Origin: Kaistia defluvii
Lineage (GTDB): Bacteria > Pseudomonadota > Alphaproteobacteria > Rhizobiales > Kaistiaceae
Reading direction: 5' to 3'
NCBI RefSeq assembly: GCF_026343955.1
Contig: NZ_JAPKNI010000003.1
Location: 372,001 to 436,000 of the forward strand
DNA length: 64,000 nucleotides
Both the position numbers and the translations under genes were made by a program. A model generated the notes under the pieces. The model made no database searches and was not told where the DNA came from. It saw only the letters and a list, made by a program, of their open reading frames with translations. This document shows, piece after piece, positions 47,649-64,000 of this stretch. Numbering within the stretch: position 1 is the stretch's first letter; each line of letters opens with the position of its first letter.

Positions 47649-50600
47649 CTACACCGGCTTTTCGGCCGGGGCGCGTGTCTTGCGCGACATCCGCCAGGAA
47701 CCGAGGCGGCGCACGGCGACATAGAACAGCGGCACGAAGAAGATGCCGATCGTGGTCGCCGCGATCATGCCGCCCATCACGCCGGTGCCGACCGCGTTCT
47801 GCGCGCCCGAGCCGGCGCCGGTGGCGATCGCCAGCGGCAGGATGCCGAAGATGAAGGCCAGCGACGTCATCAGGATCGGGCGGAGCCGCATCCGCGCGGC
47901 GTCGAGCGTCGCCTCGACCAGGCCCTTGCCGGCCGCCTGCTGGTCCTTGGCGAATTCGACGATCAGGATCGCGTTCTTCGCCGCGAGGCCGATCGTCGTC
48001 AGCAGACCGACCTTGAAATAGACGTCGTTCGACTGGCCGAACAGCTTGGCGGCGATCAGCGCGCCGAGCACGCCGATCGGCACGGAGAGCATGACCGAGA
48101 ACGGGATCGACCAGCTTTCATAGAGCGCCGCCAGGCAAAGGAAGACGACGAGGATCGAGATCGCATAGAGCGCGGGCGCCTGGTTGCCCGAAAGCTGCTC
48201 CTGGTAGGAAAGCCCCGTCCACGAGGCGGTGAATCCGTCCGGCAGCCTGGCGACCATGGCCAGCATCTCGTCCATGGCCGTGCCCGAGCTGACGCCCGCC
48301 CCGGCCGAACCCTGGATGCTGACCGCCGAGATGCCGTTATAGCGATCGAGCTTCGGCGAGCCATAGGTCCAGTCCGTCGAGACGAAGCTGGAGAACGGCA
48401 CCATTTCGCCGCTGGCATTGCGCACGAACCAGTCGTTCAGATTGTCCGGCTGCATGCGGAAACGCGCGTCGGCCTGCAGATAGACCGGCTTGACCTTGCC
48501 GCGATCGATGAAGTCGTTGACATAGCTGCCGGCGAAGCCGACCGAGATCGTGTCGTTGATGTCGCCGAGATCGATGCCCAGCGCCCGGGCCTTGGCCTGG
48601 TCGATATTGATCCGGAATTCGGCCTGGTCCTCCTGGCCGCCCTGACGGACGCCGCTCACCAGCGGATTTTCGCGCGCCATCGCCAGAAGCTGGTCGCGCG
48701 CCGCGGCCAGCTTCACCGGCCCGGCGCCGGCCGAATCCTGCAGATACATCTCGAAGCCGCTGGAATTGCCGAGATTGGGCAGGGCCGGCGGCGAAAGGGC
48801 GAAGACCTGGGCGTCGCGGATCCCCGAAAAGGCCGCCATGGCCCGGCCGGCGATGGCCGAGGCGGATTGGTCGGCGCGGGTACGCTGGTCGAAATCCTTC
48901 AGCTTGATGAAGGCCATGGCCGCGTTCTGGCCATTGCCGTTGAAGCCGAAGCCGAGGGCGACGAACACACTGTCGACGGAATCCTTCTCCTGCGTCAGGA
49001 AATGATCCTCGACCTGCTTCACCACTTCCAGCGTCCGGGCCCGGGTGGCCCCGACGGGAAGCTGGATCGAGGTCATCAGCACGCCCTGATCCTCTTCCGG
49101 CAGGAAGGAGGTCGGCAGCCTGTTGAACAGGACGGCGACGCCAGCGCACATCAGCAGGTAGATGAGAAAGAAGCGGATCGGCCGGCGGATGATCCCGCCG
49201 ACGCCGCGCTGGTAGCGGTTTGCATTCCGGTCGAAGGTCCGGTTGAACCAGCCGAACAGGCCCTTGCGCTCGCCATGGCCGCTGGAAGGCTTCAGCATGG
49301 TGGCGCAGAGCGCCGGCGTCAGCACCAGGGCGACGAAGACCGACAGCACCATGGCCGCGACGATCGTCACCGCGAACTGGCGATAGATCACGCCGACCGA
49401 ACCGCTGAAGAAGGCCATCGGCACGAACACGGCGGAGAGCACCAGCGCGATGCCGATCAGCGCGCCGGTGATCTCGCGCATCGATTTCTTGGTAGCCTCG
49501 CGCGGCGGCAGGCCGTCCTCCGCCATGACGCGCTCGACGTTCTCCACCACGACGATGGCGTCGTCGACCAGCAGGCCGATCGCCAGCACCATGGCGAACA
49601 TGGTCAGCGTGTTGATCGAATAGCCCGCGAAGGAGAGCACCGCGAAGGTGCCGAGCAGCACCACCGGCACGGCGATGGTCGGGATCAGGGTGGCGCGGAA
49701 GCTCTGCAGGAACACGAACATGACGATGAAGACGAGCACCACGGCCTCGATCAGCGTCTCGACCACCTTCTCGATCGAAAGCTTGACGAAGGGCGTCGTG
49801 TCATAGGCCGTCACCACCTCGATGTTCGGCGGCAGGCCGGCCGAGAGCTTGGCGATCACCTCGGCGACCCCGGCGGCCGTATCGATCGCGTTGGCGCCGG
49901 TGGCGAGGTTGATACCGAAGCCGGCGGCGTTCTTGCCGTTGAAGCGCGAACTGGTGGTGTAGCTTTCCGAACCGATCTCGACCCGCGCGACATCGCTCAG
50001 ATGGACGATCGAGCCATCGGTCGCGGTTTTCAGGATGATGTCGCGGAATTGCTCGGGCGTCTGCAGCTGGCTCTGCGCGGTGATGGTGACATTGAGCTGC
50101 TGCCCCTCGATGCTGGGCAGCGCACCGAGCTGGCCAGCAGACACCTGGCGGTTCTGCGAGGCGATCGCCGCCACGACGTCGCTCGGGATCATCTGGTATT
50201 TGGCCAGCTTGATCGGATCGAGCCAGATCCGCATCGCATAACCGGAACCGAAGACATTGACGTCGCCGACGCCACTGACGCGCTTGATCGAATCCTCGAA
50301 CCGGCTGGAGAAATAGTCGCCGAGATCCTCGGACGACTGGCTGCCATCGGTCGAGACCAGGCCGCCGACCATCAGGATGCTCGAGGTCGACTTCGTCACC
50401 GTGATGCCCTGCGCCACCACAGCATCCGGCAATTGCGACTGCACCAGCTGCAGCTTGTTCTGCACCTGCACCTGCGCGATGTCGGGATCGACGCCGCTGG
50501 CGAAGGTGAGCTGGACCGAGGACTGGCCGGAAGACGTGCTGGACGCCGACATGTAGTCGAGATTCTCAAGCCCGGTCATGCCCTGCTCGATGATCTTGGT

Positions 50601-50783
50601 CACCGAGTTCTCGACCGTTTCGGCGCTGGCGCCGGGATAGGTGGCGGAGATGCGCACCGTGGTCGGCGCGATCTCGGGATATTGCGCGATCGGCAGGGTG
50701 TAGATGCCGAGCAGGCCGGCGAGCATGACGGCGATCGCCAGCACCCAGGCAAAGATCGGGCGGTCGATGAAGAAATCGGCCAT
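47649..50783 (-). CDS. RND multidrug efflux pump, inner-membrane subunit (HAE1, AcrB-like)
   Basis: 1044-residue proton-driven exporter. It begins [20 protein letters not shown], the standard HAE1 start. Membrane helix 4 holds the proton-relay Asp pair in [20 protein letters not shown], and the second half repeats the fold ([35 protein letters not shown]). Full length for the family. It starts four bases after the stop of the membrane-fusion gene. No outer-membrane TolC-type gene is nearby, so a shared one must serve. No TetR gene is nearby either. Confidence 0.94.
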
Positions 50784-50787
50784 GCGA

Positions 50788-52017
50788 TCAGCCTCCTGCC
50801 GCAGGGGCGGGGGCGGGAGCGGCGGCCGGAGCCGGTGTCTTGGACTCGACGGCATGCGCGACGCCCGCCGCATCGATCGTGACCTCGATCGGCGTGACGG
50901 CCTGGCCGTCGCCGATCTTCTGCAGACCGTCGACGATCAGCCGGTCGCCATCCGAAATGCCCGACTCGACCAGCCAGTCCGAGCCGACCGATTGCATGGT
51001 CTTCAGCACGCGGGTCTCGACCTTGCCGTCCTTCGACACGAACATCGCCGTCGCGTCGCCCTTGGCGTTGCGGTTGACGGCGCGTTGCGGCACCAGAAAG
51101 GCGCCCTCGTCAGTGCCGAGATCGACGATGGCGCGGACATACATGCCCGGCAGCAGCATGCGCGTCGGATTTTCGAAGCTGGCGCGCATCGAGAAGGTGC
51201 CGGTGGTCTCGTTGACCGTCGCCTCGGCCGAGCGCAGCTCGCCGATCTTGTCGTAGACGAGCGTGTCGCTGAGCTTGAGCCGCACGGCGGGCGGTCCATC
51301 GCCGCGCTTCAGCCGCCCGCTTTCGATCAGGCTGCGGATGCGCAGCAGATTGGTGCTGGAATCGGTCAGGTCGACATTGATGGGGTCGATCTCGCGGATG
51401 GTGGCGAGCGCCGTGGCCTGGTTGGCCGTCACCAGCGCGCCCTCGGTCACCGTCGACGTGCTGATCAGACCGGAAATCGGCGCCACCACCTTGGTGTAGT
51501 CGAGGTTGATCTGGGCGGAGGCGAGCGCCGCCTCGGCGGCCGCGACATCGGCCTTGGACTGGGCCAGCGTCGCCTTGGCATCGTCCAGGCTCTGCGCCGT
51601 CACGGTGTTGACGCCGACCAGCTGTTTGTAGCGATCGACCTTGGCCTGGGCGCTCGGCACGGCGGCCTGCGCCTTTTCCAGCGCCGCCGCGGCGGCGTCA
51701 TAGGCGGCCTGATAGGGGCGCGGATCGATCTGGTAGAGCAGGTCGCCGGCCTTGACCTGGCCACCCTCGGTAAACACCCGCTTCTGGATCAGCCCGTCGA
51801 CCTGCGGCCGGATCTCCGACACCTTGGTGGCGCTGACGCGGCCGGGCAGTTCGATGGTGATCGGCACGTTCTGCGGCCGGAGCGTGACCACGCCGACCTC
51901 GACCGGTCCCGCCGGTGGCCCTCCCGGGCCCGGCCCGCTTCCCGTGGACGGGCCTGAACAGGCCGCTAGGAAGAAAGCGCCGAACAGGCTCGCCAATGCG
52001 AGGGCCGTAGGTTTCAT
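50788..52017 (-). CDS. RND efflux membrane-fusion lipoprotein (AcrA-like)
   Basis: 409 residues. Lipobox LAAC at 17-20 makes Cys20 the lipid-anchored residue. The lipoyl halves are [27 protein letters not shown] and [16 protein letters not shown], on each side of an Ala/Gln-rich alpha hairpin (about 105-165). Barrel and membrane-proximal domains follow, and the end is an Ala/Pro tail. The ATG at 52017 has GGAG eight bases before; an open frame of 70 residues upstream has no family match. Operon with the pump. Confidence 0.92.
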
Positions 52018-52115
52018 GCGAGATGCTCCGAAGATCGCCACTGCCACGCTCATCGCGTGACTATATAGAGCCCCTCTTTCCAGTCGCTGACTATGGGCGC
52101 AACCATTATTGGGCG

Positions 52116-52148
52116 TCGAAACATTGCTGGCGTTTCGAAATATTGCTG
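52116..52148. promoter_or_regulatory. Direct repeat upstream of the efflux operon
   Basis: TCGAAACATTGCTG (52116-52129) and TCGAAATATTGCTG (52135-52148) differ at one base and are 19 bp apart, about 100 bp before the membrane-fusion gene. Two copies on nearly the same face of the helix suggest a regulator site. Confidence 0.5.
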
Positions 52149-52223
52149 CGAATTCTACCTTCGCGCGAAGGTTCTGGACGGTCACCGCCCGCGCGTCGGT
52201 CCGGCGGCGGCAAGCCGGCTTTT

Positions 52224-52655
52224 TCAAGCCGGCCGGACGATGCCCTTCTTGAGGATGAGATTGCCATATTGCCGGGTCTCGCCCGTCTGGACGATGGCGT
52301 AGCCGGCATTGGCGCGTTCATAGAAGGCGAAACGCTCCAGCGAGTGGACCTTGTGCTCCGGCTCGTGGCGCTGGACGATCTGCTCGAACTCGTCGACGAT
52401 CGGCTCGCGCCGGTCGGGATCGCCCACCACCTGCATCGAGATTGCGGCGACATCGTCATACTGGTCGAGCGGCAGCAGCGACAGGATCGCATCGAGCACC
52501 TGCGGCGCCGTGGCGGCGTCGATCCGGATCAGCTCCGGCCCGGCACTGGTAGCGGGGTAGTTGGCGTCGACGATGGTGATCTCGTCGCCATGGCCCATGG
52601 CGCGCAGCGTCCAGAGCAGATCCGGCGAGAGGATCGGCGAAAGTCCCTTGAGCAT
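52224..52655 (-). CDS. fucU: L-fucose/D-ribose-type mutarotase (FucU/RbsD family)
   Basis: 143 residues. It speeds anomer exchange of a free sugar inside the cell. MLKGLSPILSPDLLWTLRAMGHGDEITIVDANYPA at the N-terminus is the FucU signature, with His22 and Asp30 in the active site. AAGGA lies seven bases before the ATG. It lies 200 bp after the dehydratase stop and is probably the last gene of the large sugar operon, or a separate short transcript. Confidence 0.85.
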   Translation of the reverse strand: MLKGLSPILSPDLLWTLRAMGHGDEITIVDANYPATSAGPELIRIDAATAPQVLDAILSLLPLDQYDDVAAISMQVVGDPDRREPIVDEFEQIVQRHEPEHKVHSLERFAFYERANAGYAIVQTGETRQYGNLILKKGIVRPA

Positions 52656-52855
52656 GTCGTGTCCTTCGGTTGCGAGGTCGGGTGGAAGCCGGGATAGCCC
52701 CAGCCCGGCCCGCTCCGGCCGGTGAAGGCTGGAACGGACCGGACCGGCCCTCCCCTCGGGTCTGGAAATGCGGTGGCGCGAGGCGGCGCGCGCCTGGAGC
52801 ATAGGGTTAACGGGAGGCTAACAAATCTCGCCTCCGAGAGACGGTCGAAGAGGCC

Positions 52856-54409
52856 CTAGAATGTCGCCCCGATCTGCCACGGCACGAATTCATTGTCGCC
52901 ATAGCCGAGCAATTCCGACTTGCTCTTGTCGCCGGAAGCGACTTCGAGAATCCGGTCGAAGATCTCCTGCCCCTTGGTCTCGAGCGACTTGCCGTCGAGC
53001 ACGTCGCCGCCATTGATGTCCATGTCGTCGATCATCTTGGCGTAGATCTCGGAATTGGTGGCGATCTTGATCGAGGGGGTCGGCTTGCAGCCATAGGCCG
53101 AGCCTCGCCCGGTGGTGAAGCAGAGGATGTTGGCGCCCCCCGCCACCTGGCCGGTCGCCGAGACCGGGTCGTAGCCGGGCGTATCCATGAAGACAAAGCC
53201 CTTCTCGGTCACCGGCTCGGCATAGCCATAGACGGCGGTGAGCGGAGAGGTACCGCCCTTGGCGGCGGCCCCCAGCGACTTCTCCAGAATGGTCGTAAGC
53301 CCGCCCTGCTTGTTGCCGGGCGAGGGATTGTTGTTCATCTCCATGAGGTTACGGGTGGCGTAGTCCTCCCACCAATGGATGATGTCGACCAGCTTCTCGC
53401 CGACCTCGCGCGACACGGCGCGGCGGGTGAGCAGATGCTCGGCGCCATAGATCTCGGGCGTCTCCGAAAGAATGGCGGTACCACCATTGCGCACGAGGAT
53501 ATCGGCGGCGACGCCGAGCGCCGGGTTGGCGGTGATGCCGGAATAGCCGTCGGATCCGCCGCATTGCAGCGCCAGCATCAGTTCGCTCGCCGGCACCGTC
53601 TCGCGCTTCACCGAATTGACGATCGGCAGCATCGCCTTGACCGCCTCGACGCCGGCATCCACCGTCTTCCTGGTGCCGCCGACTTCCTGGATGGTCATGG
53701 TGCGGAAAGTCTCGCTCTCCTCGATCTTGTAGGCATCCTTGAAGCGCGGAATCTGGAAGCCCTCGCAGCCGAGGCCGACCATGACGACGCCACCCATATT
53801 CGGGTTGGTGGCATAGCCCCAGGTCGTGCGCTTCAGCGTGTCGAAGATCACGCCGCGATAGTCGATGACGCAGCCATTGGCCTGCTTGAGCGCGACGATG
53901 CCATCGATATTCGGATAATCGTTCAGGATGCCTGATCGTTCGATCTCGGTCGCGATGAAGCCGGCGACCGTCGTCGAGCAGTTCACCGAGGTCAGGATGC
54001 CCACATAGTTGCGCGTGCCAACCTTGCCATTGGCGCGGCGAAAGCCCTGGAAGGTCGCCTGGAACGCCTTCGGCACGAATTGGGTGGGGACCACGCCCTC
54101 GCTGAAGGCGTAGTCACGCGCGAAGGCGCCATGCTCTTCGCCGATGCCGCAGTTATGCTCATGCACCCAGTCACCCGCGGCGATGTCCATCTTGGCGAAG
54201 CCGATGATCTGGCCGAATTTGCGGATCGGCTCGCCGGCGGCGATCGGCCGGATCGCGAATTTGTGCCCGCGCGGCACGCGGCGAATGATGGTGGCGCCCT
54301 GCGCCGTCACCATGCCGACATCGAGATTGCCGAGCGCCACCGCGATGTTGTCCTCGCCATGGAGGAGAAGCGTGCGCGGCTGGGCCGGAAGGGGGGCTGC
54401 CTCGTTCAT
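52856..54409 (-). CDS. UxaA/GarD-family sugar-acid dehydratase
   Basis: 517 residues. The N-terminal SAF domain (about 12-90) carries RVPRGHKFAIRPIAAGEPIRKFGQIIGFA and ends at VHEHN. The large catalytic domain has GKVGTRNYVGILTSVNCSTTVA, LGCEGFQIPR, LQCGGSDGYSGITANPALG and ITTGRG-like FTTGRGSAYGCKPTPSIKIATN. This is the pattern of altronate and galactarate dehydratases, which remove water from an aldonic or aldaric acid. Both domains are fused, as in UxaA. It sits 48 bp after an epimerase gene in the same direction. Substrate: probably the sugar acid made by the dehydrogenase of this operon. Confidence 0.87.
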   Translation of the reverse strand: MNEAAPLPAQPRTLLLHGEDNIAVALGNLDVGMVTAQGATIIRRVPRGHKFAIRPIAAGEPIRKFGQIIGFAKMDIAAGDWVHEHNCGIGEEHGAFARDYAFSEGVVPTQFVPKAFQATFQGFRRANGKVGTRNYVGILTSVNCSTTVAGFIATEIERSGILNDYPNIDGIVALKQANGCVIDYRGVIFDTLKRTTWGYATNPNMGGVVMVGLGCEGFQIPRFKDAYKIEESETFRTMTIQEVGGTRKTVDAGVEAVKAMLPIVNSVKRETVPASELMLALQCGGSDGYSGITANPALGVAADILVRNGGTAILSETPEIYGAEHLLTRRAVSREVGEKLVDIIHWWEDYATRNLMEMNNNPSPGNKQGGLTTILEKSLGAAAKGGTSPLTAVYGYAEPVTEKGFVFMDTPGYDPVSATGQVAGGANILCFTTGRGSAYGCKPTPSIKIATNSEIYAKMIDDMDINGGDVLDGKSLETKGQEIFDRILEVASGDKSKSELLGYGDNEFVPWQIGATF

Positions 54410-54457
54410 GAGTTCGTTCCTATCGCGGCCACACGGGCAGCCGCCGTTGCGCGGGCC

Positions 54458-55306
54458 TCAGGCTGAACGCCAGCCATCGCGGATGAGCGTGAAGCCGTCG
54501 CTGTAGACTTCGGTGGCGGCCGGGAAAAGGTCGCGCCAGATCCGCGTCGCCGCCGCCAGCAGCGGCATCGAGCGTCCGAACGCCTCGATCGTGATCCAGC
54601 CGTCATAGTCGACCTGCTTCAACGCCTTGAAGGTACTTGCGAAATCGATGTGACCCTTGCCGGGTGTCCCGCGATCGTTCTCCGAGACATGCACATGCCC
54701 TAGCTGGGGCGCGATGGTTGCCACGGCGGCGATCGGGTCCTTTTCCTCGATATTGGCGTGGAAGGTGTCGTACATGCCAGCAACGTTCGGGTGAGCGACC
54801 GCGGCGAGGTAGTCGTTCAGGTCGTGCATGGTGTTGACGAAATAGCATTCGAAGCGGTTGACCGCCTCCAGCACCAGCGTGATGCCCTTGGCGCGCGCCA
54901 TGTCGCCGGCGTCGCGATGGAAGGCGATGGCGCGCTGCCGTTCCTCGAAGGTCGGCGCATCGCCGGAAAAATGGCCGAGCGTCGAATGCAGAGGGCCGCC
55001 GACGACCTTGGCGCCCAGCGCGGCCGAGCAATCCAAGATCCAGGCCATATGCCGGCGGGCACCCTGCTGCTGCGCGGCATCGGCGCCGAGCGGGTTCATC
55101 TCGACGCCGGGAAACAGCGAAATCACCGTGCGCTCCAGCCCGAGCCGGTCGAGCTCGCGGCCAAGTTCGGCATAGTGCTCGGGCGTGCCTTCAAAGATCG
55201 GGATCTCGACGCCGTCATAGCCGCAGCGTTTCAGATCCTCAAGGATCGGCCAATGTCGCGGTTCGACATGCGCGGTCCAGAGCAGGAGATTGAAGCCGAT
55301 CTTCAT
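54458..55306 (-). CDS. D-tagatose/D-psicose 3-epimerase-like sugar epimerase
   Basis: 282-residue TIM-barrel enzyme. The four metal ligands of the D-tagatose 3-epimerase family are present with the right spacing: Glu147 (LVLEAVN), Asp180 (GMYDTFH), His206 (HVHVSEND) and Glu241 (TIEAFG), and Arg212 follows in NDRG. All are offset by five from the Pseudomonas cichorii enzyme. AGGA precedes the ATG at 55306. It lies between the binding-protein gene and the dehydratase gene. It probably changes the configuration of the imported ketose or its product. Confidence 0.85.
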   Translation of the reverse strand: MKIGFNLLLWTAHVEPRHWPILEDLKRCGYDGVEIPIFEGTPEHYAELGRELDRLGLERTVISLFPGVEMNPLGADAAQQQGARRHMAWILDCSAALGAKVVGGPLHSTLGHFSGDAPTFEERQRAIAFHRDAGDMARAKGITLVLEAVNRFECYFVNTMHDLNDYLAAVAHPNVAGMYDTFHANIEEKDPIAAVATIAPQLGHVHVSENDRGTPGKGHIDFASTFKALKQVDYDGWITIEAFGRSMPLLAAATRIWRDLFPAATEVYSDGFTLIRDGWRSA

Positions 55307-55364
55307 CGAGAATGTCCTGGTTCGCATCCGGCGGGTCGGCGGCGCGATGCCACCGTCCGGAAGG

Positions 55365-55392
55365 GGCCGGCGGACCCGAGGGTCCACCGGCC
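55365..55392 (-). terminator. Hairpin after the CUT2 binding-protein gene
   Basis: GGCCGG (55365-55370) pairs with CCGGCC (55387-55392), and inside it GGAC pairs with GTCC. It is nine bases after the binding-protein stop and before the epimerase gene, so it may protect the binding-protein message. Confidence 0.6.
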
Positions 55393-55400
55393 GCAACGCA

Positions 55401-56411
55401 TCACTCGGACGGGGGGACCGGCGGAGCGGCACCCTGCGGCAGAGGCTCTTCCAGCCACTTCGCGACCATCTCCGGCTTGGCATCCCAGGGAGCGGCATCG
55501 GCCAGATTGTCCTTGGTGATCACCTGGCTCGGCGCGTAGTAGAACTGGCCCGGCTTGACCGAACCGTCGATGACACCGAGCAGCAGGCGCAGCGCATGGA
55601 CGGAGGCGATCGAGGGCGGGTTGCTGCCGGTCAGGGTCATCTGGCCCTTTTCGATCAGTTCGACGCCATAGGGAGCGCCATTGTTGCCGCCGATCAGAAT
55701 CTCTCCGGTCTTGCCCGCGCGCTCGATGGCGATCGCGACGCCGACGGCCATGTCGTCATTGGCGGCGTAGATCGCCTTGACGTTGGGATGGGCGGCCAGG
55801 ATCTGCGAGGCCGCGTCCATGGCCTTCTGGCGGTCCCAGTCGGCGGCGAGGTCGGCAACGCTGACCGCCTTGGAGCCGGACTTGGCGATGCCGTTCTTGA
55901 ACGACTGCACGAAGGCTTCCGCGTCGCCGCGGCCGAGCTTGCCGGTGATGGTGGCGTATTCGCCCTCCGGCAGCAGCTTGCCGATCGCCTCGCCGACGGG
56001 CTCGCCGAACCGGTAGAGATCGATCTGCATGATGCCGGCCGAATCCGCCAGGATCGACGGGTCATAGCCATACTGGAAGAAGATCGGCACGCCCGCCTTC
56101 TTGGCCTGGGCGATGGCGGCCTTTTCCGAGGAAAGCGACACGGCGTAGATCAGGATGCCGTCGACGCCCTTTGTGATCGCGTCCTGGACGTTGGCGAGCT
56201 CCTGGGTCGGGTCGTTGTTGGCGGAATAGGTGATCAGGTTGACGCCGAGCTTGTCGGCGGCGGCCTGGGCCGCGTTCATGCCATACTGGTAGTAGGGATC
56301 CGGACCGCCGCGCATGAAGGCGATGGTCTTTTCCGCTGCCTGCGACAGGCTCGGCGCCAGGATGGCCGTTCCCAGCGCCAGCACAGCGAGGGCTCTCCTC
56401 GTGATATTCAT
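55401..56411 (-). CDS. Sugar ABC transporter substrate-binding protein (CUT2, RbsB-like)
   Basis: 336 residues with a signal peptide ending at SQA (about residue 25). The receptor starts KTIAFMRGGPDPYYQYGMNAAQAAADKLG, and ITKGVDGILIYAVSL, GRGDAEAFVQSFKNG and KAIYAANDDMAVGVAIA are typical for the ribose-binding class. GGAGGAGACGAGCA precedes the ATG at 56411. The C-terminus has an unusual Pro-rich tail (PQGAAPPVPPSE). Third transporter gene in the order ATPase, permease, receptor. Confidence 0.88.
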   Translation of the reverse strand: MNITRRALAVLALGTAILAPSLSQAAEKTIAFMRGGPDPYYQYGMNAAQAAADKLGVNLITYSANNDPTQELANVQDAITKGVDGILIYAVSLSSEKAAIAQAKKAGVPIFFQYGYDPSILADSAGIMQIDLYRFGEPVGEAIGKLLPEGEYATITGKLGRGDAEAFVQSFKNGIAKSGSKAVSVADLAADWDRQKAMDAASQILAAHPNVKAIYAANDDMAVGVAIAIERAGKTGEILIGGNNGAPYGVELIEKGQMTLTGSNPPSIASVHALRLLLGVIDGSVKPGQFYYAPSQVITKDNLADAAPWDAKPEMVAKWLEEPLPQGAAPPVPPSE

Positions 56412-56454
56412 TGCTCGTCTCCTCCGTTGCAATGTCCCTGAAGCGGCGTGCCGG

Positions 56455-57426
56455 TTAGGCTTTCTTCTGCAGCAGGACCGCCGCCGTTATGATCAATCCC
56501 AGCACCGCGCTCTGGAAATTCGCGCCGACGCCGAGAAGGTTCATGCTGTTGCTCACCAGACCGAGCAGCAGGACGCCGCCCAGCGTGCCGAGCACCGTTC
56601 CCCGCCCGCCGATCAGCGGCGTGCCGCCGATGACCACGGCCGCGATGGCGCGAAGCTCGTAGCCCGTGCCCATGCTGGGCAGGCCGGAATCGAGAACGCC
56701 GGTGAGGATGACGCCGGCGACGCCGACGAAGAGGCCGCTCAGCGCGTAGAGTGCGATCTTGATGCGCCGGACCGGAATGCCGGAAAGCCGCGCCGCTTCC
56801 TCGTTACCGCCAATGGCGAAGGCGTAGCGGCCGAGCGTCGTGAAGCGCAGGATCAGGAACATCACCAGGATGGCGAGGAACATGGCGTAGACCGGCCATG
56901 GCACGCGCAGGAAATCGCCGAGGCCGAAGACGTCGAACAGCGCGCCGGTGCCGTTGATCGGGCTGCCGCCCGACATCAGGATGGCGACGCCCTGCAGGAA
57001 GGTCATCGTGCCGAGCGTGATGATGAAGGGCGTGGCGCGGTTGGTCGCCACCAGCATGCCGTTGATCGCGCCGATCACCGTGCCGGCCACCACGCCGGCG
57101 AGGATGCCAAGCGCGACCGAGCCCGTATGCATGATGGTGAGCGCCGTGGCGAGGCCGGCCACCGACAGCGCCGCGCCGACCGAAAGATCCAGCCCGCCCG
57201 CGATCAGCAGGATGGTCTGGCCCGAGGCGACAATGCCGAGCGCCGACACCTGGAACAGGATGTTCAGCAGGTTGTTCACGGACAGGAAGCGCGGATTGCC
57301 GATCGCGGTCACCACCACGATGAGCAGGAGCACGATCAGCAGCGTGTAGCGGCCGAGATCCTGTCCACGGAGCGCGCCGGGCTTTCGGGAGGCCGGCTTG
57401 GCAGCCGTTGCGGCGGGAGAAGACAT
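56455..57426 (-). CDS. Sugar ABC transporter permease (CUT2, RbsC-like)
   Basis: 323 residues with eight to ten helices. LLIAGGLDLSVGAALSVAGLAT and IAAVVIGGTPLIGGRGTVLGTLGG are RbsC signatures. A Ser/Ala/Pro/Lys tail precedes the first helix. It overlaps the ATPase stop by one base (TGATG). Confidence 0.9.
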   Translation of the reverse strand: MSSPAATAAKPASRKPGALRGQDLGRYTLLIVLLLIVVVTAIGNPRFLSVNNLLNILFQVSALGIVASGQTILLIAGGLDLSVGAALSVAGLATALTIMHTGSVALGILAGVVAGTVIGAINGMLVATNRATPFIITLGTMTFLQGVAILMSGGSPINGTGALFDVFGLGDFLRVPWPVYAMFLAILVMFLILRFTTLGRYAFAIGGNEEAARLSGIPVRRIKIALYALSGLFVGVAGVILTGVLDSGLPSMGTGYELRAIAAVVIGGTPLIGGRGTVLGTLGGVLLLGLVSNSMNLLGVGANFQSAVLGLIITAAVLLQKKA

Positions 57427-58946
57427 CAGTTCACGCTCCGGGTGCTTTGGGTCTGGATGGCGGAGAGCAGGCGCTCGGGATCGAGCCGATCCGGCGACAG
57501 GGCCTGCTCGATGCGGCCATTCCGAAGGACGAGAATTCGATCGGCGAGCGCGATCAGTTCTTCGAGGTCCGTCGACACGAAGACGATGGTGGCGCCCTTG
57601 TTGGCGAGGCTGCGCAGATGATCATGGATCTGTCGCTGCGACTCGACGTCGACGCCCTGGGTTGGCTCCTCGAGCACGAAGAGCCGTCCATCGGCGAAGA
57701 TGGCGCGGCCGAGCAGCGCCTTGCGCTGGTTGCCGCCGCTCAGAAACCGGACTTCGCGGCTCGGCGCGCGCGGATTGAGGTCGAGCCGTTCCGACATGTC
57801 GGTCGCGACGCCGGTCTCCCGCGCAAGCTTGAGCCAGCCCAGCTTGGACAGCCGCCGAAGCGCCGCGAGCGAGATGTTCTTGGCGATCGACAGGCTCATC
57901 ACCAGCCCGCGCCCGCGCATGTCCTCGGGAATGAACAGCACACCGCGGGCAATCGCCTCGCGCACGGCGCGCGGTGCATAGGGTTCGCCGCCCAGCGACA
58001 TACGGCCTGCGACATGGCGATGGTCGATGCCGCCGATCACGGCGGCCAGCGCATTGGCGCCGCCGCCGATCAGCCCGGTCAGCCCGACGATCTCTCCCCT
58101 GCCGACCTCGAGCGAGACATTGTCGAGACCGCCCGCGTTGGAAACCCCGTCCATCACCAGGAACGGTTCCGTCTTGGGCCGGACGCTGCGATGCGTCTCG
58201 ACCGCGTCGAGCGTCCGCCCGACGATCATCGAGATCAGCCCGTCCTTGTCAGCGCTGCCGCCCTCGACCAGCGCGACCTTACGCCCGTTGCGCAGCACGG
58301 TGATGCGATCGGAGATCGCCAGCACCTCGTCGAGGTGATGCGAGACATAGACGACGGCCATGCCCTGTCTGGCGAGGTCGCGGATCAGCCGGAACAGGAA
58401 CTCGGCCTGCGCCTTGTTCAGCGCCGCCGTCGGCTCGTCGAGCAGCAGAACATGCGCCTTTTCGCGCACGGCCTTGGCGATCGCCACCTGCTGTCGATCG
58501 GCGATGTCGAGGTCGCCGAGCCGCTGGTTGACGGGCAGATCGAGCCCGAGCCGGGCCAGAAGCTCCGTCGCCCGCGTCGCCATCGCCTTGTCGTCGAGGA
58601 TGCCGAAAGCCTTGCGCGGCTCGGCGCCGAGGAAAATGTTGGCGGCGACCGAGAGATCGAGATGCAGTTCCGGGTTCTGGTAGACGATGGCGATGCCGGC
58701 CGCGCGGCCCTCGGCCGGATTGAGCGCCTTGAAGGCGGTGCCGCCGACGATGATCTGGCCGCTGTCGGGCGGCTGCGCGCCCGACAGGATCTTCATGAAG
58801 GTCGACTTGCCGGCGCCGTTCTTGCCGACCAGGCCATGCACCTCGCCGCGCGCGACCTCGAAGTCGACGTCATCCAGCGCGCGCTGACCCAGAAAGCTCT
58901 TGGTCACGCCCTGTACCTGGATCGCGAGCGGTGTATCGGGGGTCAT
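57426..58946 (-). CDS. Sugar ABC transporter ATP-binding protein (CUT2, RbsA-like)
   Basis: 506 residues, two ATPase domains. Domain 1: Walker A GKNGAGKST at 41-49, ADRQQVAIAKAV in the signature place, and LLLDEPTAALN. Domain 2: degenerate Walker A (TGLIGGGANALAAV), LSGGNQRKALLGRAI and VLEEPTQGVD. The loss of the second Walker A is normal for RbsA-type proteins. It starts 14 bp after the dehydrogenase stop. Confidence 0.9.
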   Translation of the reverse strand: MTPDTPLAIQVQGVTKSFLGQRALDDVDFEVARGEVHGLVGKNGAGKSTFMKILSGAQPPDSGQIIVGGTAFKALNPAEGRAAGIAIVYQNPELHLDLSVAANIFLGAEPRKAFGILDDKAMATRATELLARLGLDLPVNQRLGDLDIADRQQVAIAKAVREKAHVLLLDEPTAALNKAQAEFLFRLIRDLARQGMAVVYVSHHLDEVLAISDRITVLRNGRKVALVEGGSADKDGLISMIVGRTLDAVETHRSVRPKTEPFLVMDGVSNAGGLDNVSLEVGRGEIVGLTGLIGGGANALAAVIGGIDHRHVAGRMSLGGEPYAPRAVREAIARGVLFIPEDMRGRGLVMSLSIAKNISLAALRRLSKLGWLKLARETGVATDMSERLDLNPRAPSREVRFLSGGNQRKALLGRAIFADGRLFVLEEPTQGVDVESQRQIHDHLRSLANKGATIVFVSTDLEELIALADRILVLRNGRIEQALSPDRLDPERLLSAIQTQSTRSVN

Positions 58947-58960
58947 GGCCGTGATGCCGC

Positions 58961-60103
58961 TCAGCCCTGGACCGCTTCCCAGCGGCCCGACTTCGCCGAG
59001 GCCAGCACGGCGTCGGTGACGTAGTCGGTGCGGAGCGCCTCGCGGAAGGTCGGCGCGGCAGGCGTGCCGGAGGTGAGGCCGGCGAGGAAATCGGCGGCCT
59101 GATGGATGAAGGAGTGCTCGTAGCCGATCTGCAGGCCCGGCACCCACCACTGGCTCATATAGGGATGGTCGCCATCGGTGATGTGGATCGAGCGCCAACC
59201 GCGCAGATGCCCTTCGTCGCTGTAGTCGAAGTAGGACAGCCGGTGCAGGTCGTGCAGGTCCCAGGCAATCGAGCCCTTCTCGCCATTGATCTCCAGCGTG
59301 TAGAGCGCCTTGTGGCCGCGGGCATAGCGGGTCGCCTCGAAGGTCGCGAGCGAGCCGTTGTGGAAACGGGCGAGGAAAGCGCTGGCGTCGTCGATCTTGA
59401 CCTCTTCGACCTTGCCGCTGACGGCATGCGAGCGCTGCTTGACGAAGGTTTCCGTCGCCGCCGTCACGCTGTCGATGCCGCCGTTCAGCCAGATCGCGGT
59501 ATCGATGCAGTGCGCGAGCAGGTCGCCGGTGACGCCGCTGCCGGCGACGCTGGCGTCCAGCCGCCAGGTGCCCATGCCGCCCTGCGGCACATCGGCCGAG
59601 ATCGTCCAGTCCTGCAGGAATTTGGCGCGATAATGGAAGATGCGGCCGAGCCGACCCTCGTCGATCATCTGCTTGGCGAGCGTCACCGCCGGCACGCGGC
59701 GATAATTGTACCAGACCATGTTGGCGACGCCGGCCGCCTCGACGGCCTCGACCATCTTTTCCGCCTCGGCAGCGTTGCGGCCGAGCGGCTTCTCGCACAT
59801 CACCATCTTGCCGGCCTGTGCCGCCGCGATGGCGATCTCGGCATGGGTATCGTTGGGGCTGGCAATATCGATCAGGTCGATATCCTTGCGCTCGATCAGC
59901 CTGCGCCAGTCGCTTTCGGAGCTCTCATAGCCCCAGTTCTCGGCGAAATCAGCGGCGCCCTTGGCATTGCGCGTGGCGATCGCCTTCAGGACGGGCTCGT
60001 ATTCGCTGTTGAAGAACTGACCGACCTGGCGGAAGGCGTTGGAATGGGTGCGGCCCATGAAGCCGGCGCCGACCAGGCCGATATTCAGCTTTTTCTTGGT
60101 CAT
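58961..60103 (-). CDS. Gfo/Idh/MocA family sugar dehydrogenase
   Basis: 380 residues. [19 protein letters not shown] binds NAD(P); the catalytic lysine is in MCEKPLGRN near residue 107, and [14 protein letters not shown] forms part of the active site. The ATG at 60103 was chosen for its match to relatives; its ribosome site is weak, and 13 more residues are possible. It follows the epimerase-type gene by 22 bp and precedes the importer genes. It probably oxidises the imported sugar or inositol-like compound. Confidence 0.87.
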
Positions 60104-60125
60104 TTTCTTGAGATCCCCGAAACCG

Positions 60126-61178
60126 TTATTCGCGCCAGCCATGCGCGTCGCGCACCTTGATCATCGCGCCCAGAACGTCGTTCCAGGTCTGCTGGGCCGT
60201 CATCACGGAGTTCGGGAACATGCAGCCGTCCCAGGCGATGTGGCGCATCTTCTTGGTGAGGTTGCCCTGGTCGTCGCGCAGCCAGTAGCCGGCATGCTTC
60301 GTGACATCGAGCTTGCCGTTGGGGTCGGTGACCTGGACGTGGCGGCCGGTCTTCTCGTGATCGCCGGAGCCGAAAACGGTGCCGTCGTTCTGGGCGACGT
60401 GGAAATCATAGGTCCAGGGGCGCAGCGCGTCGGCGACTTGTCTGTAGGCCGCGTCGAGGACCGAGCGGTCCTGCCAGTCATAGCCCTCGGGAAGCAGGCG
60501 ATCCTGCTCGGCGTTGTAGCCCAGCGTGAACAGCATCGAATGCGCCATGTCGGCCTGGTAGCCGACGACGCCCGGCATGTTGACCGCTTCGAGCAGGCGG
60601 ACATTCTCGCGCCAGGACTGCATGCCGCCCCAGCAGATCTCGCCCTCGGCGACGAGGAATTCGCCATGATCCTGCGCCGCCTTGCCGGCTTCGCGGAACG
60701 TCTCGGCGATGATTTTGGTGTTGCCGACGGGATCCCTGTCCCAGTCGCCGACGCCGGTCGAGGAATCGATCCGGATGCCGCCGGTCGTGCGGATGCCCAG
60801 TTCGCGCATCTGCTCGCCGATCGCGGCGGCCTTGCGCACCTGCGAGACGAAGCGCTTGCGCTCCTCGGCCGAGCCCATCGCCGAACCGCCGCCGGCGCCA
60901 GCCCAGATCGGCGCCACGAACGAGCCGACCTTCAGGCCATAGCCCGCAATGTGGTCAACCATGCGCTTGACCTGATCCTTGTCGCTGTCGATCGACAGGT
61001 GCGGATCGGCCAGCCAGAGATCGATGCCGTCGAACTTCTGTCCGTCGACTTCCGCCTTGGCGGTCAGTTCCAGCAGCGTGTCCAGCGGAATGACCGGTTC
61101 GCCCCCCTCGCCGCCCTTGCCGACGACGCCCGGCCACGCGGCGTTGTGCAGCTTCGGATAGTTGTTCGGATCCGCCAT
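60126..61178 (-). CDS. Sugar phosphate isomerase/epimerase family protein (xylose isomerase-like TIM barrel)
   Basis: 350 residues, first gene of the sugar operon. The fold shows in [72 protein letters not shown] and a C-terminal [24 protein letters not shown]. Glu, Asp and His residues in these strands can hold a divalent metal. It is longer than standard epimerases of about 280 residues because of an insert in the second half. GGGAGGAAG precedes the ATG. The reaction is unknown. Confidence 0.8.
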
Positions 61179-61381: not shown

Positions 61382-61590
61382 GTTATATTAGTGTAACGTG
61401 TCAAGCGGGCTTCAACGCATGGTTGGACACCAGGGGGAGGATTGGAATTCCTGAGTTCTATTTTCTGGTTTTTTCTGTCATATCGTTGATAACGATCGAC
61501 TTCTCGCCGCTTCCTACTGCTGGCGCGGGACGGCGGCCCCTCCAACCGATAGCCGGATGCGCTTGCGGGTCGACGGCGGAGTAATATAAC
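61382..61590. promoter_or_regulatory. Inverted pair of GTTATATTA operator-like sites
   Basis: GTTATATTA at 61382-61390 lies in GTTATATTAGTGTAAC, whose ends GTTA and TAAC are inverted repeats. The exact inverse, TAATATAAC, lies at 61582-61590. Written in one sense both read CTGTTATATTA followed by G or C and T. One site is near each of the two diverging genes, as expected for a regulator that controls both. Confidence 0.62.
61482..61496. promoter_or_regulatory. 15-bp palindrome in the divergent promoter region
   Basis: ATCGTT, GAT, AACGAT. A perfect inverted repeat midway between the two GTTATATTA sites. It could be a site for a second regulator. Confidence 0.5.
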
Positions 61591-61697
61591 AGTAAAGCAG
61601 GCGGGGTCGTTCGGGCGCCAGGGCGCCGCTCCGGCCCGAAGGACGGCACCCGTTCGGCCGACTGCCGCCAGCGAATTCTGGGAGAGGATCCAAGCGG

Positions 61698-62402
61698 GTG
61701 GCCGACGCGGCATTACTGCAATTGCAGCTGGTCAACCTCGACCGCAAATCGCCGCTGCGCGACCAGATCTATCAGGTCGTCCGCACGCTGATCATCATCG
61801 GGCAATTGCGGCCCGGCCAGTCCGTCAACGAGGTCGAGATCGCCGAGCAACTGGGTGTGTCGCGCACCCCGGTCCGCGAAGCGGTGAAGCGGCTGAGCGA
61901 CGAGGGCTTGATCAACGTCTACGCCCAGACCGGCACCTTCGTCGCCGCGCTATCGCGCGACGCCATCGAGGAAGCCTATGTCATCCGCAATGCGCTCGAG
62001 GTCGAGAGCGTGCGGCGGGCGGCGTCCAAGATCAGCCCGTTCCATCTCGAGGAGCTGGAAGACATTGTCGGCCAGCACCAGACCGCGATCGGCCGCAAGC
62101 GCTACACGGAGGCCATCCGGCTCGACGACCAGTTCCACCGCTACATCGCCGAGATCAACAATCTCTCGATGCTGTGGCGGGCCGTCGATATCTCGAAGGC
62201 GCAGATGGATCGCGGCCGCTATCTGGCGCTGCCCAAGCCGGGCCTGGGCGAGACGACGATTGCCCAGCACCAGGCGATCCTGACGGCGCTCGCCGCGCGC
62301 GACGCGCAGCAGGCCATGGAAGCGATGCGGGTGCATCTCGACACCTCGCTGCGCAACACGCTGAGCCTGCTCGGCGACATGCTGGATCCGCCGGAAAGCT
62401 AG
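61698..62402 (+). CDS. GntR-family transcription regulator (FCD domain) of the sugar operon
   Basis: 234 residues, GTG start behind GGAGAGG. The winged helix (about 18-85) has LRPGQSVNEVEIAEQLGVSRTPVREAVKRLSDEGLINVYAQTGTFV. The FCD domain (about 95-220) has IRNALEVESVRRAASK, DDQFHRYIAEINNLSMLWRAVD and HQAILTALAARDAQQAMEAMRVHLD, with the usual His residues for metal. It is divergent from the epimerase-dehydrogenase-importer operon, with paired motifs between them, so it most likely represses that operon until the sugar or its acid binds. Confidence 0.88.
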   Translation: MADAALLQLQLVNLDRKSPLRDQIYQVVRTLIIIGQLRPGQSVNEVEIAEQLGVSRTPVREAVKRLSDEGLINVYAQTGTFVAALSRDAIEEAYVIRNALEVESVRRAASKISPFHLEELEDIVGQHQTAIGRKRYTEAIRLDDQFHRYIAEINNLSMLWRAVDISKAQMDRGRYLALPKPGLGETTIAQHQAILTALAARDAQQAMEAMRVHLDTSLRNTLSLLGDMLDPPES

Positions 62403-62453: not shown

Positions 62454-63116
62454 TTAGAGCACCACGACCTTCGAGCCGTCGGGAACCCGGCCGTAGAGAT
62501 CGATGACGTCCTGGTTCATCATCCGGATGCAGCCCGAAGAGACGGCCTCGCCGATCGACCAGGGCTGGTTGGTGCCGTGGATGCGATAGAGCGTGTCCTT
62601 GCCGCCCTGGAACAGATAGAGCGCGCGGGCGCCAAGCGGATTTTCCGGACCGCCTTCCATGCCGCCGGCCCATTGCTGGTTGATCTCCGGCGAACGGGCA
62701 ATCATGTCCTGCGTCGGGGTCCAGCGCGGCCACTGTCGCTTGTACTGGACATTGGCGGTGCCGGAGAACTCCAACCCGGCCTTGCCGACGCCGACGCCAT
62801 AGCGCATCGCCTTGCCGCCTTCCTGGACCAGGTAGAGGTAGCGATCATGCGGATCGACGATGATGGTGCCCGGCGGCTGGTCGGTCGAATAGTCGACCTG
62901 CGTGCGGATGTTGCGCTGCTTCAACTTGTCGAGCGGCACGGCCGGGATCGGGAATTTCTCCGTCTCGATCGCCGCGTAATGGCGCGCCACCTGCGGATCG
63001 ACCGCGGGCGTCAGCGGGGCGGCGAAATCGCGTCCTGTCGAGGCGCAGGCGGCGAGCGCCAGCGGCAGCAGGATGGCGACCGTCATCCGCCGTAAGAAGG
63101 GAAGGCTTAAGGACAT
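62454..63116 (-). CDS. L,D-transpeptidase lipoprotein (YkuD/ErfK family)
   Basis: 220 residues. Lipobox LAAC at 21-24. The YkuD domain covers about 82-219; the catalytic motif is HGTNQP from His180 to SSGCIRM with nucleophile Cys196. Such enzymes make 3-3 crosslinks in peptidoglycan or attach lipoproteins to it. The SGCIRMMNQDVIDLYGRVPDGSKVVVL ending is complete. It stands 50 bp after the DsbA-like gene on the same strand, so it may share its transcript. Confidence 0.92.
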   Translation of the reverse strand: MSLSLPFLRRMTVAILLPLALAACASTGRDFAAPLTPAVDPQVARHYAAIETEKFPIPAVPLDKLKQRNIRTQVDYSTDQPPGTIIVDPHDRYLYLVQEGGKAMRYGVGVGKAGLEFSGTANVQYKRQWPRWTPTQDMIARSPEINQQWAGGMEGGPENPLGARALYLFQGGKDTLYRIHGTNQPWSIGEAVSSGCIRMMNQDVIDLYGRVPDGSKVVVL

Positions 63117-63166: not shown

Positions 63167-63793
63167 TCAGTTGGCGGCCTGCCGCCGGCGCGCTTCGGCG
63201 ACCGCTTCCTTGAAGCCGTCATAGTCGAGCGTCGAGGCCCGGAACGGACCGATCAGGTAGGTGGGCGTGCCGTTCATGCCGAGGCCTTCGGCCTGGGCGA
63301 GGTTGCGCTGCATCAGCGCCGAGATCTTCGGCCCATGCGCGGTGAGATCCGCCTGCAGCCGCTTCATGTCGACGCCCGAGGCCTGGATCGCCTCCAGCAT
63401 CGTGTCGCCGGTGACGCCCCGGCCCGAAATGCCCATCAGCGCGTGATGCGCCGTCTCGTATTTGCCCTGATAGTTGGCCGCCAGCGCGAACTGCGCGCCC
63501 TGGACGGAGGATTCGGTCAGGATCGGCCAGTCCTTGTAGACCAGGCGGATCTTGCCGTCCTCCTTGACAACGCGCGCCAGGTCGGCCGCCGACGTCTTGC
63601 AGTAGGGGCAGTTGTAATCGAAGAAGGCAACGATGGTGACGTCGCCCCTGGGGTTTCCGCCTGTCGGCGCCTCGGGATCGTTCAGGACCGCGTTGACATC
63701 GACGCCCTTGGCGATGGCCGGCAAGCCGTCGAGAACGATCGCGGAAGAGGCAAGAAGGCTCGCGGCGGTTCCGAGGAAAAAGCGGCGGTTCAT
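63167..63793 (-). CDS. DsbA-family thiol-disulfide oxidoreductase with Tat-like signal
   Basis: 208 residues. The N-terminus MNRRFFLGTAASLLASSAIV has a twin-arginine motif (RRFFL) followed by a hydrophobic stretch, so it may be exported folded. The thioredoxin-fold active site is Cys62-Pro-Tyr-Cys65 in YNCPYCK, and GTPTYLIG carries the cis-proline. The ATG at 63793 has GGAG seven bases before it and overlaps the dsbD stop (ATGA), which settles the start. Together with DsbD it probably reduces or isomerises periplasmic disulfides. Confidence 0.9.
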   Translation of the reverse strand: MNRRFFLGTAASLLASSAIVLDGLPAIAKGVDVNAVLNDPEAPTGGNPRGDVTIVAFFDYNCPYCKTSAADLARVVKEDGKIRLVYKDWPILTESSVQGAQFALAANYQGKYETAHHALMGISGRGVTGDTMLEAIQASGVDMKRLQADLTAHGPKISALMQRNLAQAEGLGMNGTPTYLIGPFRASTLDYDGFKEAVAEARRRQAAN

Positions 63794-64000
63794 GAAGGGC
63801 TCCATTCTGGAAAAATGCTGTCCGTGGGCGCTTGGCTACCGGTAGACACGGCGTGCTCAAGCCGCTGGGCAAAGTCGTTGCCGGCAATCGCGCCGATCAT
63901 GCGGGATCCGGCCAGTTCCGAGCCGGCGGCGTTGAGCAGGAACATCGTCGGCGGCCCGACGACGCCGAAGCGCTGCATGAGCCGGCGGCTGTCTTCACCG
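63790..64000 (-). CDS. dsbD: Thiol:disulfide interchange protein DsbD, C-terminal end (partial)
   Basis: The 69 last residues of a protein that begins outside the window. DSRRLMQRFGVVGPPTMFLLN, then RMIGAIAGNDFAQRLEHA, is the end of the C-terminal thioredoxin domain of DsbD, with the cis-proline region GPPT. The domain passes electrons from the membrane part to periplasmic partners. The stop overlaps the start of the DsbA-like gene by four bases, so both are one operon. Confidence 0.78.
   Translation of the reverse strand, partial: GEDSRRLMQRFGVVGPPTMFLLNAAGSELAGSRMIGAIAGNDFAQRLEHAVSTGSQAPTDSIFPEWSPS

Follow-up and report, generated by a model that had tools for sequence, protein, structure and literature searches.

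Which sugar is served by the operon at positions 52224–61178 of a 64,000-nucleotide stretch of Kaistia defluvii DNA (NZ_JAPKNI010000003.1, 372,001–436,000; hereafter the window), and is it used by a route that has been described before? Eight open reading frames on the minus strand encode, in this order, a xylose-isomerase-like TIM-barrel enzyme (TIM1), a Gfo/Idh/MocA dehydrogenase (GFO), the ATPase, permease and periplasmic receptor of a CUT2-type ATP-binding cassette (ABC) transporter, a second TIM barrel resembling ketose 3-epimerases (DTE), an aldonate dehydratase (UXA) and a FucU-type mutarotase (FucU). Families were assigned with Pfam and NCBIfam models and their curated cut-offs; we recovered the same eight reading frames in the same minus-strand order as the original prediction, made from the sequence alone, and the models back the families that it had named.

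We propose, at a probability of about 0.4, that this is a GntR-controlled operon for the import and non-phosphorylative catabolism of an unusual monosaccharide, with a front end that isomerizes the sugar and oxidizes it at C1. The sugar brought in by the transporter would most probably be a ketose or the corresponding aldose. Ketose epimers and the aldose would be interconverted by DTE and TIM1, to give an aldose of L-fuco/L-galacto/D-arabino/D-altro arrangement, and FucU would exchange the anomers of that aldose. GFO would oxidize its C1 with NADP+ to a lactone, whose ring would open spontaneously or by means of an unlinked lactonase. UXA would then dehydrate the aldonate to a 2-keto-3-deoxy acid, to be finished elsewhere by a kinase and an aldolase or by a hydrolase route. 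The genes present, their conservation as an operon, the TIM1–GFO pair, the conserved palindrome and the relatedness of regulator and UXA to those of other aldose operons are observed directly; what each enzyme does, in which order, and on which class of sugar is inferred. The front end formed by DTE, TIM1 and GFO is the weak part of the proposal.

The dehydratase and its putative regulon

UXA exceeds the cut-offs of the UxaA/GarD superfamily models (GD_AH second domain 342.8 bits, GD_AH C-terminal domain 142.7 and SAF 31.3, against 26.8, 27.3 and 21 respectively). It is 35% identical to Escherichia coli UxaA and 66–67% identical to proteins of Martelella, Rhizobium and Neorhizobium; the window genome has two more copies, 66% and 57% identical. 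Four aldonates with a common C2–C4 configuration, D-arabinonate, D-altronate, L-fuconate and L-galactonate, are substrates of one characterized UxaA/GarD-type enzyme (PMC6336799, in excerpt). We therefore propose that the acid is of the L-fuco/L-galacto/D-arabino/D-altro class. That the tail of the operon leads from an aldonate to a 2-keto-3-deoxy acid by a dehydratase, as originally predicted, is fairly well grounded. We rejected a hexuronate or galactarate operon, since the operon has no uronate isomerase or tagaturonate reductase and UXA reaches 398.5 bits against the 730.85 set for galactarate dehydratase GarD (TIGR03248).

The nearest genomic relatives of this tail are plasmid operons of Martelella and Shinella. 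The window GntR is 59.8% identical to that of Martelella, and 68.4% and 67.9% identical to those of Shinella PSBB067 and a second Shinella. A palindrome, GTTAYAYTARTRTAAC, stands beside a TTGACA box in seven aligned regions between the regulator gene and the operon. It is the sole site in the window genome at up to two mismatches, and at up to three mismatches one site was found in the window against 0.05 expected. The core of this putative operator, TTAYACTAATRTAA, occurs in 17 of 167 fetched loci, namely 16 Kaistia-type entries (duplicates included) and Martelella locus L115, which carries it twice; Shinella loci L168 and L169 each carry two perfect copies. At one mismatch, five sites are found in L115 and a single one in each of two Bacteroidota loci, whereas a reversed control pattern occurs in two loci. 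Given an orthologous GntR and the same operator near promoters, the window operon is in the same putative regulon type as the Martelella and Shinella operons. A two-mismatch version of the operator also lies between TIM1 and a GntR gene (48–52% identical) in loci L086 and L097. As a separate observation, a one-mismatch operator-like site in Martelella (L115:14284) is found 5' of a non-ribosomal peptide synthetase gene adjoining the sugar operon.

The Martelella operon comprises a CUT2 importer with two permeases, GntR, an annotated L-rhamnose mutarotase, UXA, an aldo/keto reductase, an SDR and an FAH protein. That of Shinella PSBB067 has a similar importer, a lactonase-like protein (228.1 bits, cut-off 400), GntR, a mutarotase, UXA, an aldo/keto reductase and an SDR, with an annotated L-fuconate dehydratase farther on. 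Across 18 UXA-type loci, relatives of the aldo/keto reductase, the lactonase-like protein and FAH were found in eight each and at least one of them in 10, the queries being taken from L102 and L108, which match themselves. Both operons probably encode a non-phosphorylative pathway for a deoxyhexose- or pentose-type aldose. Through the shared operator, the Kaistia operon would be linked to aldonate pathways of a known kind, which leaves a few candidates for its acid.

The shared regulator, operator and UXA could instead mean that a common sugar, such as L-fucose, D-arabinose or L-rhamnose, is oxidized by a local variant of its usual route, with TIM1, GFO and DTE as auxiliary enzymes. We consider this improbable. 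TIM1 and GFO lead the operon, in an order kept in every copy examined, and the pair occurs without UXA in most of 80 TIM1 loci (the best 80 of 592 confirmed related stretches, the sample behind all TIM1 locus counts given here); moreover, the receptor has an altered binding site. A non-phosphorylative L-fucose-type gene set combines an aldose 1-dehydrogenase, a lactonase, a dehydratase and a keto-acid dehydrogenase or hydrolase; of these functions the operon contains the dehydratase, along with a mutarotase, only.

Uptake and the front end of the route

The receptor scores about 92–101 bits against ribose- and allose-binding proteins. In the alignment, the aspartate of their 'DG' pair has become asparagine ('NG') and the 'DR' of ribose-binding proteins reads 'YG'. 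We take these to be the positions that hold the sugar and, because they have changed, the ligand is probably neither ribose nor allose. FucU contains the RbsD_FucU domain (133 bits, cut-off 25); its best-scoring model is L-fucose mutarotase, at 121.2 bits just under the cut-off of 141, compared with 41.2 bits for D-ribose pyranase (cut-off 93). FucU-like genes also occur in a second CUT2 operon type, seen in the window genome (L162, C20:98000-117000) and on an Agrobacterium larrymoorei plasmid (L170), together with amidohydrolase, GMC oxidoreductase, SDR and GntR genes; the gene kinds of L162 were mostly read from sequence, and L170 adds a UXA relative and an iron alcohol dehydrogenase.

The best match of GFO in the PDB, 4h3v (328.8 bits), has no named function. 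The enzyme scores 280.9 bits to levoglucosan dehydrogenase (6a3f) and 168 to L-glucose/scyllo-inositol dehydrogenase (5ya8). Of 64 aligned rows, 95% or more keep Lys105, Asp194 and His198, which would be the catalytic residues; Arg45, present in 59 of the 64, and the fold family indicate that GFO is probably NADP(H)-linked. Levoglucosan dehydrogenase, its nearest characterized relative in the PDB search, oxidizes C3 (PMC7676230, in excerpt), and the earlier assumption that the Gfo/Idh enzyme turns the sugar into an acid is not supported.

The PDB matches of DTE are chiefly ketose 3-epimerases, in favour of the route that we propose. Its best NCBIfam model is D-psicose 3-epimerase (NF051856, PsicseEpim), at 141.7 bits, and it scores 112.9 bits to the model for the 5-keto-L-gluconate epimerase IolO (NF041099), each with a cut-off of 300. 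The latter match, together with the kinship of GFO to scyllo-inositol/L-glucose dehydrogenase, raises the possibility that an inositol, uronate or L-glucose-like sugar is converted to 5-keto-L-gluconate or D-tagaturonate, with DTE as a C4 epimerase like IolO and LguG, GFO as a reductase forming D-altronate, and UXA giving 2-keto-3-deoxygluconate. In one L-glucose pathway, LguG, a 5-keto-L-gluconate 4-epimerase, had indeed been annotated as D-tagatose 3-epimerase, and an altronate dehydratase comes later (PMC12632266, in excerpt). Nevertheless, such a keto-acid route appears unlikely: the operon has no L-gluconate/L-galactonate 5-dehydrogenase, FucU would have no obvious role, and both DTE model scores are far under their cut-offs.

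TIM1 scores 35.1 bits to PF01261, barely over the cut-off of 31.1; a sequence search of the PDB returned no chain, and the best hit of a profile search (E = 0.61) was an unrelated protein. At the profile level, TIM1 showed no relation to DTE or to a Paracoccus TIM barrel. An AlphaFold2 model (predicted local distance difference test, pLDDT, 89.2; predicted template modelling score, pTM, 0.90) gave 224 PDB structure matches at E ≤ 0.001, of which the 50 best listed are assorted xylose-isomerase-like barrels at 10–17% identity. Because these matches are spread over generic barrels at low identity, we rejected assigning a function to TIM1 from structure. Glu179, Asp211, His261 and Asp318 are invariant across 24 sequences and may form a metal site as in other barrels of this kind.

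TIM1 is 61–66% identical to relatives in other phyla. A GFO relative (60–97% identity) begins 0–479 bp past TIM1 on the same strand in 61 of the 80 loci, and lies farther off in four more; 73 of the 80 offered at least 1.3 kb of room for a neighbour. The pair comes mostly from Bacteroidota, Planctomycetota and Verrucomicrobiota. Among the same loci a DTE relative occurs in 29, and UXA and FucU in one (Kaistia granuli); also present are a cupin (30), ThuA (18), a zinc dehydrogenase (18), DUF1080 (16) and DUF4432 (14). DUF1080 and ThuA were found in none of 18 comparison loci, but nearly all of these are from other phyla. Several TIM1–GFO clusters carry a phosphomannose isomerase (PMI)-like cupin and a DUF4432 protein, which speaks for the route that we propose. 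The cupin-like protein, of about 400 aa (L032:2057-3322 and relatives), often lies directly 5' of TIM1; it has a weak phosphomannose-isomerase-like profile match only, and two members scanned had no Pfam match.

The genes adjoining the pair differ from host to host: a UxaA-type dehydratase and FucU in the window, a PfkB kinase and SDR genes in L086 and L097, UPF0261 and phosphoenolpyruvate (PEP)-hydrolase-like genes in other Kaistia, and the PMI-like cupin in Bacteroidota and Planctomycetota. In one TIM1 locus that also has a PfkB kinase, a dihydroxyacetone-kinase-like gene lies 3' of the DTE relative (L131:10902-11894), which hints at a phosphorylated tail in some hosts. At a little under even odds, we suggest that TIM1 and GFO form a hitherto undescribed unit of two enzymes, serving a rare sugar and joined to varied tails across phyla, that TIM1 has a new enzyme activity, and that the Kaistia operon forms a new complete route once the unlinked steps are added. 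Identity of 60% or more across phyla and the adjacency of the two genes mark a conserved step in carbohydrate use, and working out TIM1 and GFO would aid the annotation of several hundred related genes.

In a sample of 385 genomes of the window's class, TIM1 was found at E 1e-60 or better only in the window's own genome. A tree of 79 TIM1 proteins places the window within a well supported Pseudomonadota set of 10 rows (window included), with L086 and L097 outside it, closer to Bacteroidota with weak support; inter-phylum transfer is therefore possible. Carriage on plasmids was rejected, as no match to TIM1 was found in a plasmid collection at 1e-5.

A number of observations weigh against the isomerizing, C1-oxidizing route. 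Some concern the sugar: the receptor is only 24–26% identical to the Martelella and Shinella receptors (24% to that of Martelella), so the imported sugar may differ from Martelella's. The Martelella FAH protein scores best against the model of 2,4-didehydro-3-deoxy-L-rhamnonate hydrolase (418.9 bits, cut-off 500), and the Martelella mutarotase carries an L-rhamnose annotation, so the Martelella/Shinella sugar is itself not clearly L-fucose; these labels point to L-rhamnose, the UXA family to the fuco/arabino/altro class. In one Rhizobium and one Neorhizobium locus, the neighbours of UXA include a zinc dehydrogenase and a mannitol dehydrogenase, pointing to D-altronate. Others concern the gene set: the operon has no lactonase gene, and in a sixth Kaistia copy (G010, L127) tblastn did not find FucU within the 15-kb stretch. 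The remainder suggest 3-keto-sugar chemistry: the best-characterized PDB relative of GFO is a C3 enzyme; DUF1080 and ThuA recur in TIM1 loci (16 and 18 of 80); and a DTE relative (49%) on a Novosphingobium plasmid (L172:6759-12233) stands in a row with ThuA, MFS, gluconate-2-dehydrogenase subunit 3 and GMC oxidoreductase genes, a row that suggests use of 3-keto sugars.

GFO might accordingly act at C3, either oxidizing an imported glycoside or anhydrosugar there or using NADPH to reduce a 3-keto sugar. TIM1 and DTE would catalyse elimination, hydration or epimerization beside the 3-keto group; the freed aldose would be oxidized elsewhere and its acid dehydrated by UXA. The higher score of GFO to levoglucosan dehydrogenase than to L-glucose/scyllo-inositol dehydrogenase favours such a front end, as do a similarly laid out levoglucosan-type locus on a Klebsiella plasmid (TIM barrels, Gfo/Idh, CUT2-type ATPase and permease) and the similar gene kinds reported for lactose use in Caulobacter (PMC9007349, in excerpt). 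Against it, GFO scores 344.7 bits to the levoglucosan dehydrogenase model (NF052479), for which the cut-off is 650 and the Klebsiella plasmid protein, as positive control, reaches 749.4. Neither TIM barrel of the Klebsiella locus matches TIM1 significantly (best E 3.5 and 7.5), no DUF1080 protein was found in the window genome, and a screen of the 80 TIM1 loci at E 1e-15 found no GMC or LacB-like gene. A 3-keto front end would also leave FucU without a clear role and require an unlinked aldose oxidation. We rate it only slightly less probable than the isomerizing, C1-oxidizing one.

Organization in Kaistia and the unlinked steps

The intergenic gaps of the operon are −1 to 91 bp throughout, except for 197 bp between UXA and FucU. 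Co-transcription is likely, and FucU is the least secure member. By tblastn, the eight genes and the divergent GntR gene are found in the same order in five genomes: the window's, K. granuli (L022, the G002/L128 contig), G009, G011 and G012. In G006 (L021) the contig stops past the receptor gene. A simple gene caller mis-stranded some genes in GC-rich loci, and the gene orders that matter were checked again by tblastn.

All 14 genomes of the genus have TIM1 itself, as do 23 of the 61 relatives searched; in the seven other Kaistia it is 79–80% identical. In the four of these that were mapped (L026, L028, L134 and L135), the place of the CUT2 importer, UXA and FucU beside TIM1 and GFO is taken by a CUT1-type importer together with UPF0261 and PEP-hydrolase-like genes, and a DTE relative lies there too. 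A literature search on UPF0261 and on D-altrose/D-allulose use returned nothing bearing on the operon.

Features of the operon and its regulator region (window coordinates)
Feature	Position	Strand	Basis or remark
TIM1, xylose-isomerase-like TIM-barrel enzyme, 350 aa from ATG, first gene	60126..61178	-	PF01261
GFO, Gfo/Idh/MocA dehydrogenase	58961..60103	-	Pfam, NCBIfam, PDB search
CUT2-type sugar ABC transporter ATPase	57426..58946	-	Pfam, NCBIfam
CUT2-type permease, BPD_transp_2	56455..57426	-	Pfam, NCBIfam
Periplasmic sugar receptor, RbsB/AlsB-like, altered binding site	55401..56411	-	Peripla_BP_4
DTE, ketose/keto-sugar 3-epimerase-like TIM barrel	54458..55306	-	PF01261, NCBIfam
UXA, UxaA/GarD-superfamily aldonate dehydratase	52856..54409	-	SAF + PF20629 + PF04295 (GD_AH)
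FucU-type mutarotase, last gene	52224..52655	-	RbsD/FucU
Divergent GntR/FCD regulator	61698..62402	+	Pfam, NCBIfam
Putative operator palindrome GTTATATTAGTGTAAC	61382..61397		TTGACA box immediately upstream on minus strand; kept in 7 aligned regions
Partial second operator copy TAATATAACAGT, closer to GntR gene, inverted relative to first	61582..61593		Kept in same 7-region alignment

The gene families agree that the operon contains neither a kinase nor an aldolase. Its description in the original prediction as complete does not hold, since lactonase, kinase and aldolase are all absent, with candidates elsewhere in the genome. Four proteins match the KDPG-aldolase family, and the only DGOK kinase match adjoins one of them (C12:537992-539448). 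Further candidates are an FAH protein with 63% identity to its L108 counterpart, and lactonase-like proteins and aldo/keto reductases at up to 43% and 52% identity respectively. The keto acid may be used by such enzymes, but an operator search of the genome at up to two mismatches found no site at any of the unlinked aldolase, kinase, FAH, lactonase or reductase candidates that would tie them to the operon.

As read from the sequence, two RND-efflux-pump-type genes lie downstream on the same strand (47649-52227, minus), probably as a separate unit, and beyond the regulator are an L,D-transpeptidase-like gene (62454-63116, minus) and a thioredoxin/DsbA-like gene (63167-63805, minus).

Comparison with known systems

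In the literature searched, which was of open-licence papers only, we found no described pathway with this enzyme set, as had been predicted. The claim of a new route stands in part: the gene set as a whole matches no described pathway, but the last steps are not unique, since the regulator, operator and dehydratase are common to the Martelella and Shinella operons and the TIM1–GFO module is found in several phyla.

These Martelella and Shinella plasmid operons, which we place with the non-phosphorylative pathways of probable L-fucose/D-arabinose type, share with Kaistia a UXA (66–67%), a GntR (60–68%), the operator core and a CUT2 importer, and they too have a mutarotase gene. They differ in having an aldo/keto reductase and an SDR, with a lactonase-like protein in Shinella PSBB067 and FAH in Martelella, where Kaistia has TIM1, GFO and DTE; their mutarotase is of another family than FucU, and their receptors are distant.

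In the levoglucosan pathway (LgdA/LgdB1/LgdB2/LgdC), too, an ABC importer and PF01261 TIM barrels accompany a Gfo/Idh dehydrogenase, and GFO is 41% identical to the Klebsiella levoglucosan dehydrogenase. The Kaistia operon adds UXA, FucU and GntR, and TIM1 is not detectably related to the TIM barrels tested; DTE gives weak local matches to the two TIM barrels of the one Klebsiella locus compared (E 2e-7 and 6e-6). We rejected membership of the levoglucosan operon type because GFO is far under the model cut-off and TIM1 matches neither barrel of that locus.

Genes of Caulobacter for lactose and 3-ketogalactose, with two sugar epimerases, a sugar reductase and a transporter, are likened to ours by the description in the paper only (PMC9007349, in excerpt). 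Finally, the L-glucose pathways of Paracoccus 43P (LgdA, LgnEFGHI) and Luteolibacter LG18 (LguA-H) similarly convert a sugar to an aldonate and, with a dehydratase, to a 2-keto-3-deoxy acid (PMC12632266, in excerpt). UXA is 56.6% identical to a protein of Paracoccus denitrificans PD1222 that its neighbours mark as the presumed LgnE, and LG18 has a DTE-like epimerase. Both pathways differ from the Kaistia operon in including kinase and aldolase steps and in lacking TIM1, and 43P has its dehydrogenase and dehydratase genes in different clusters (PMC12632266, in excerpt).

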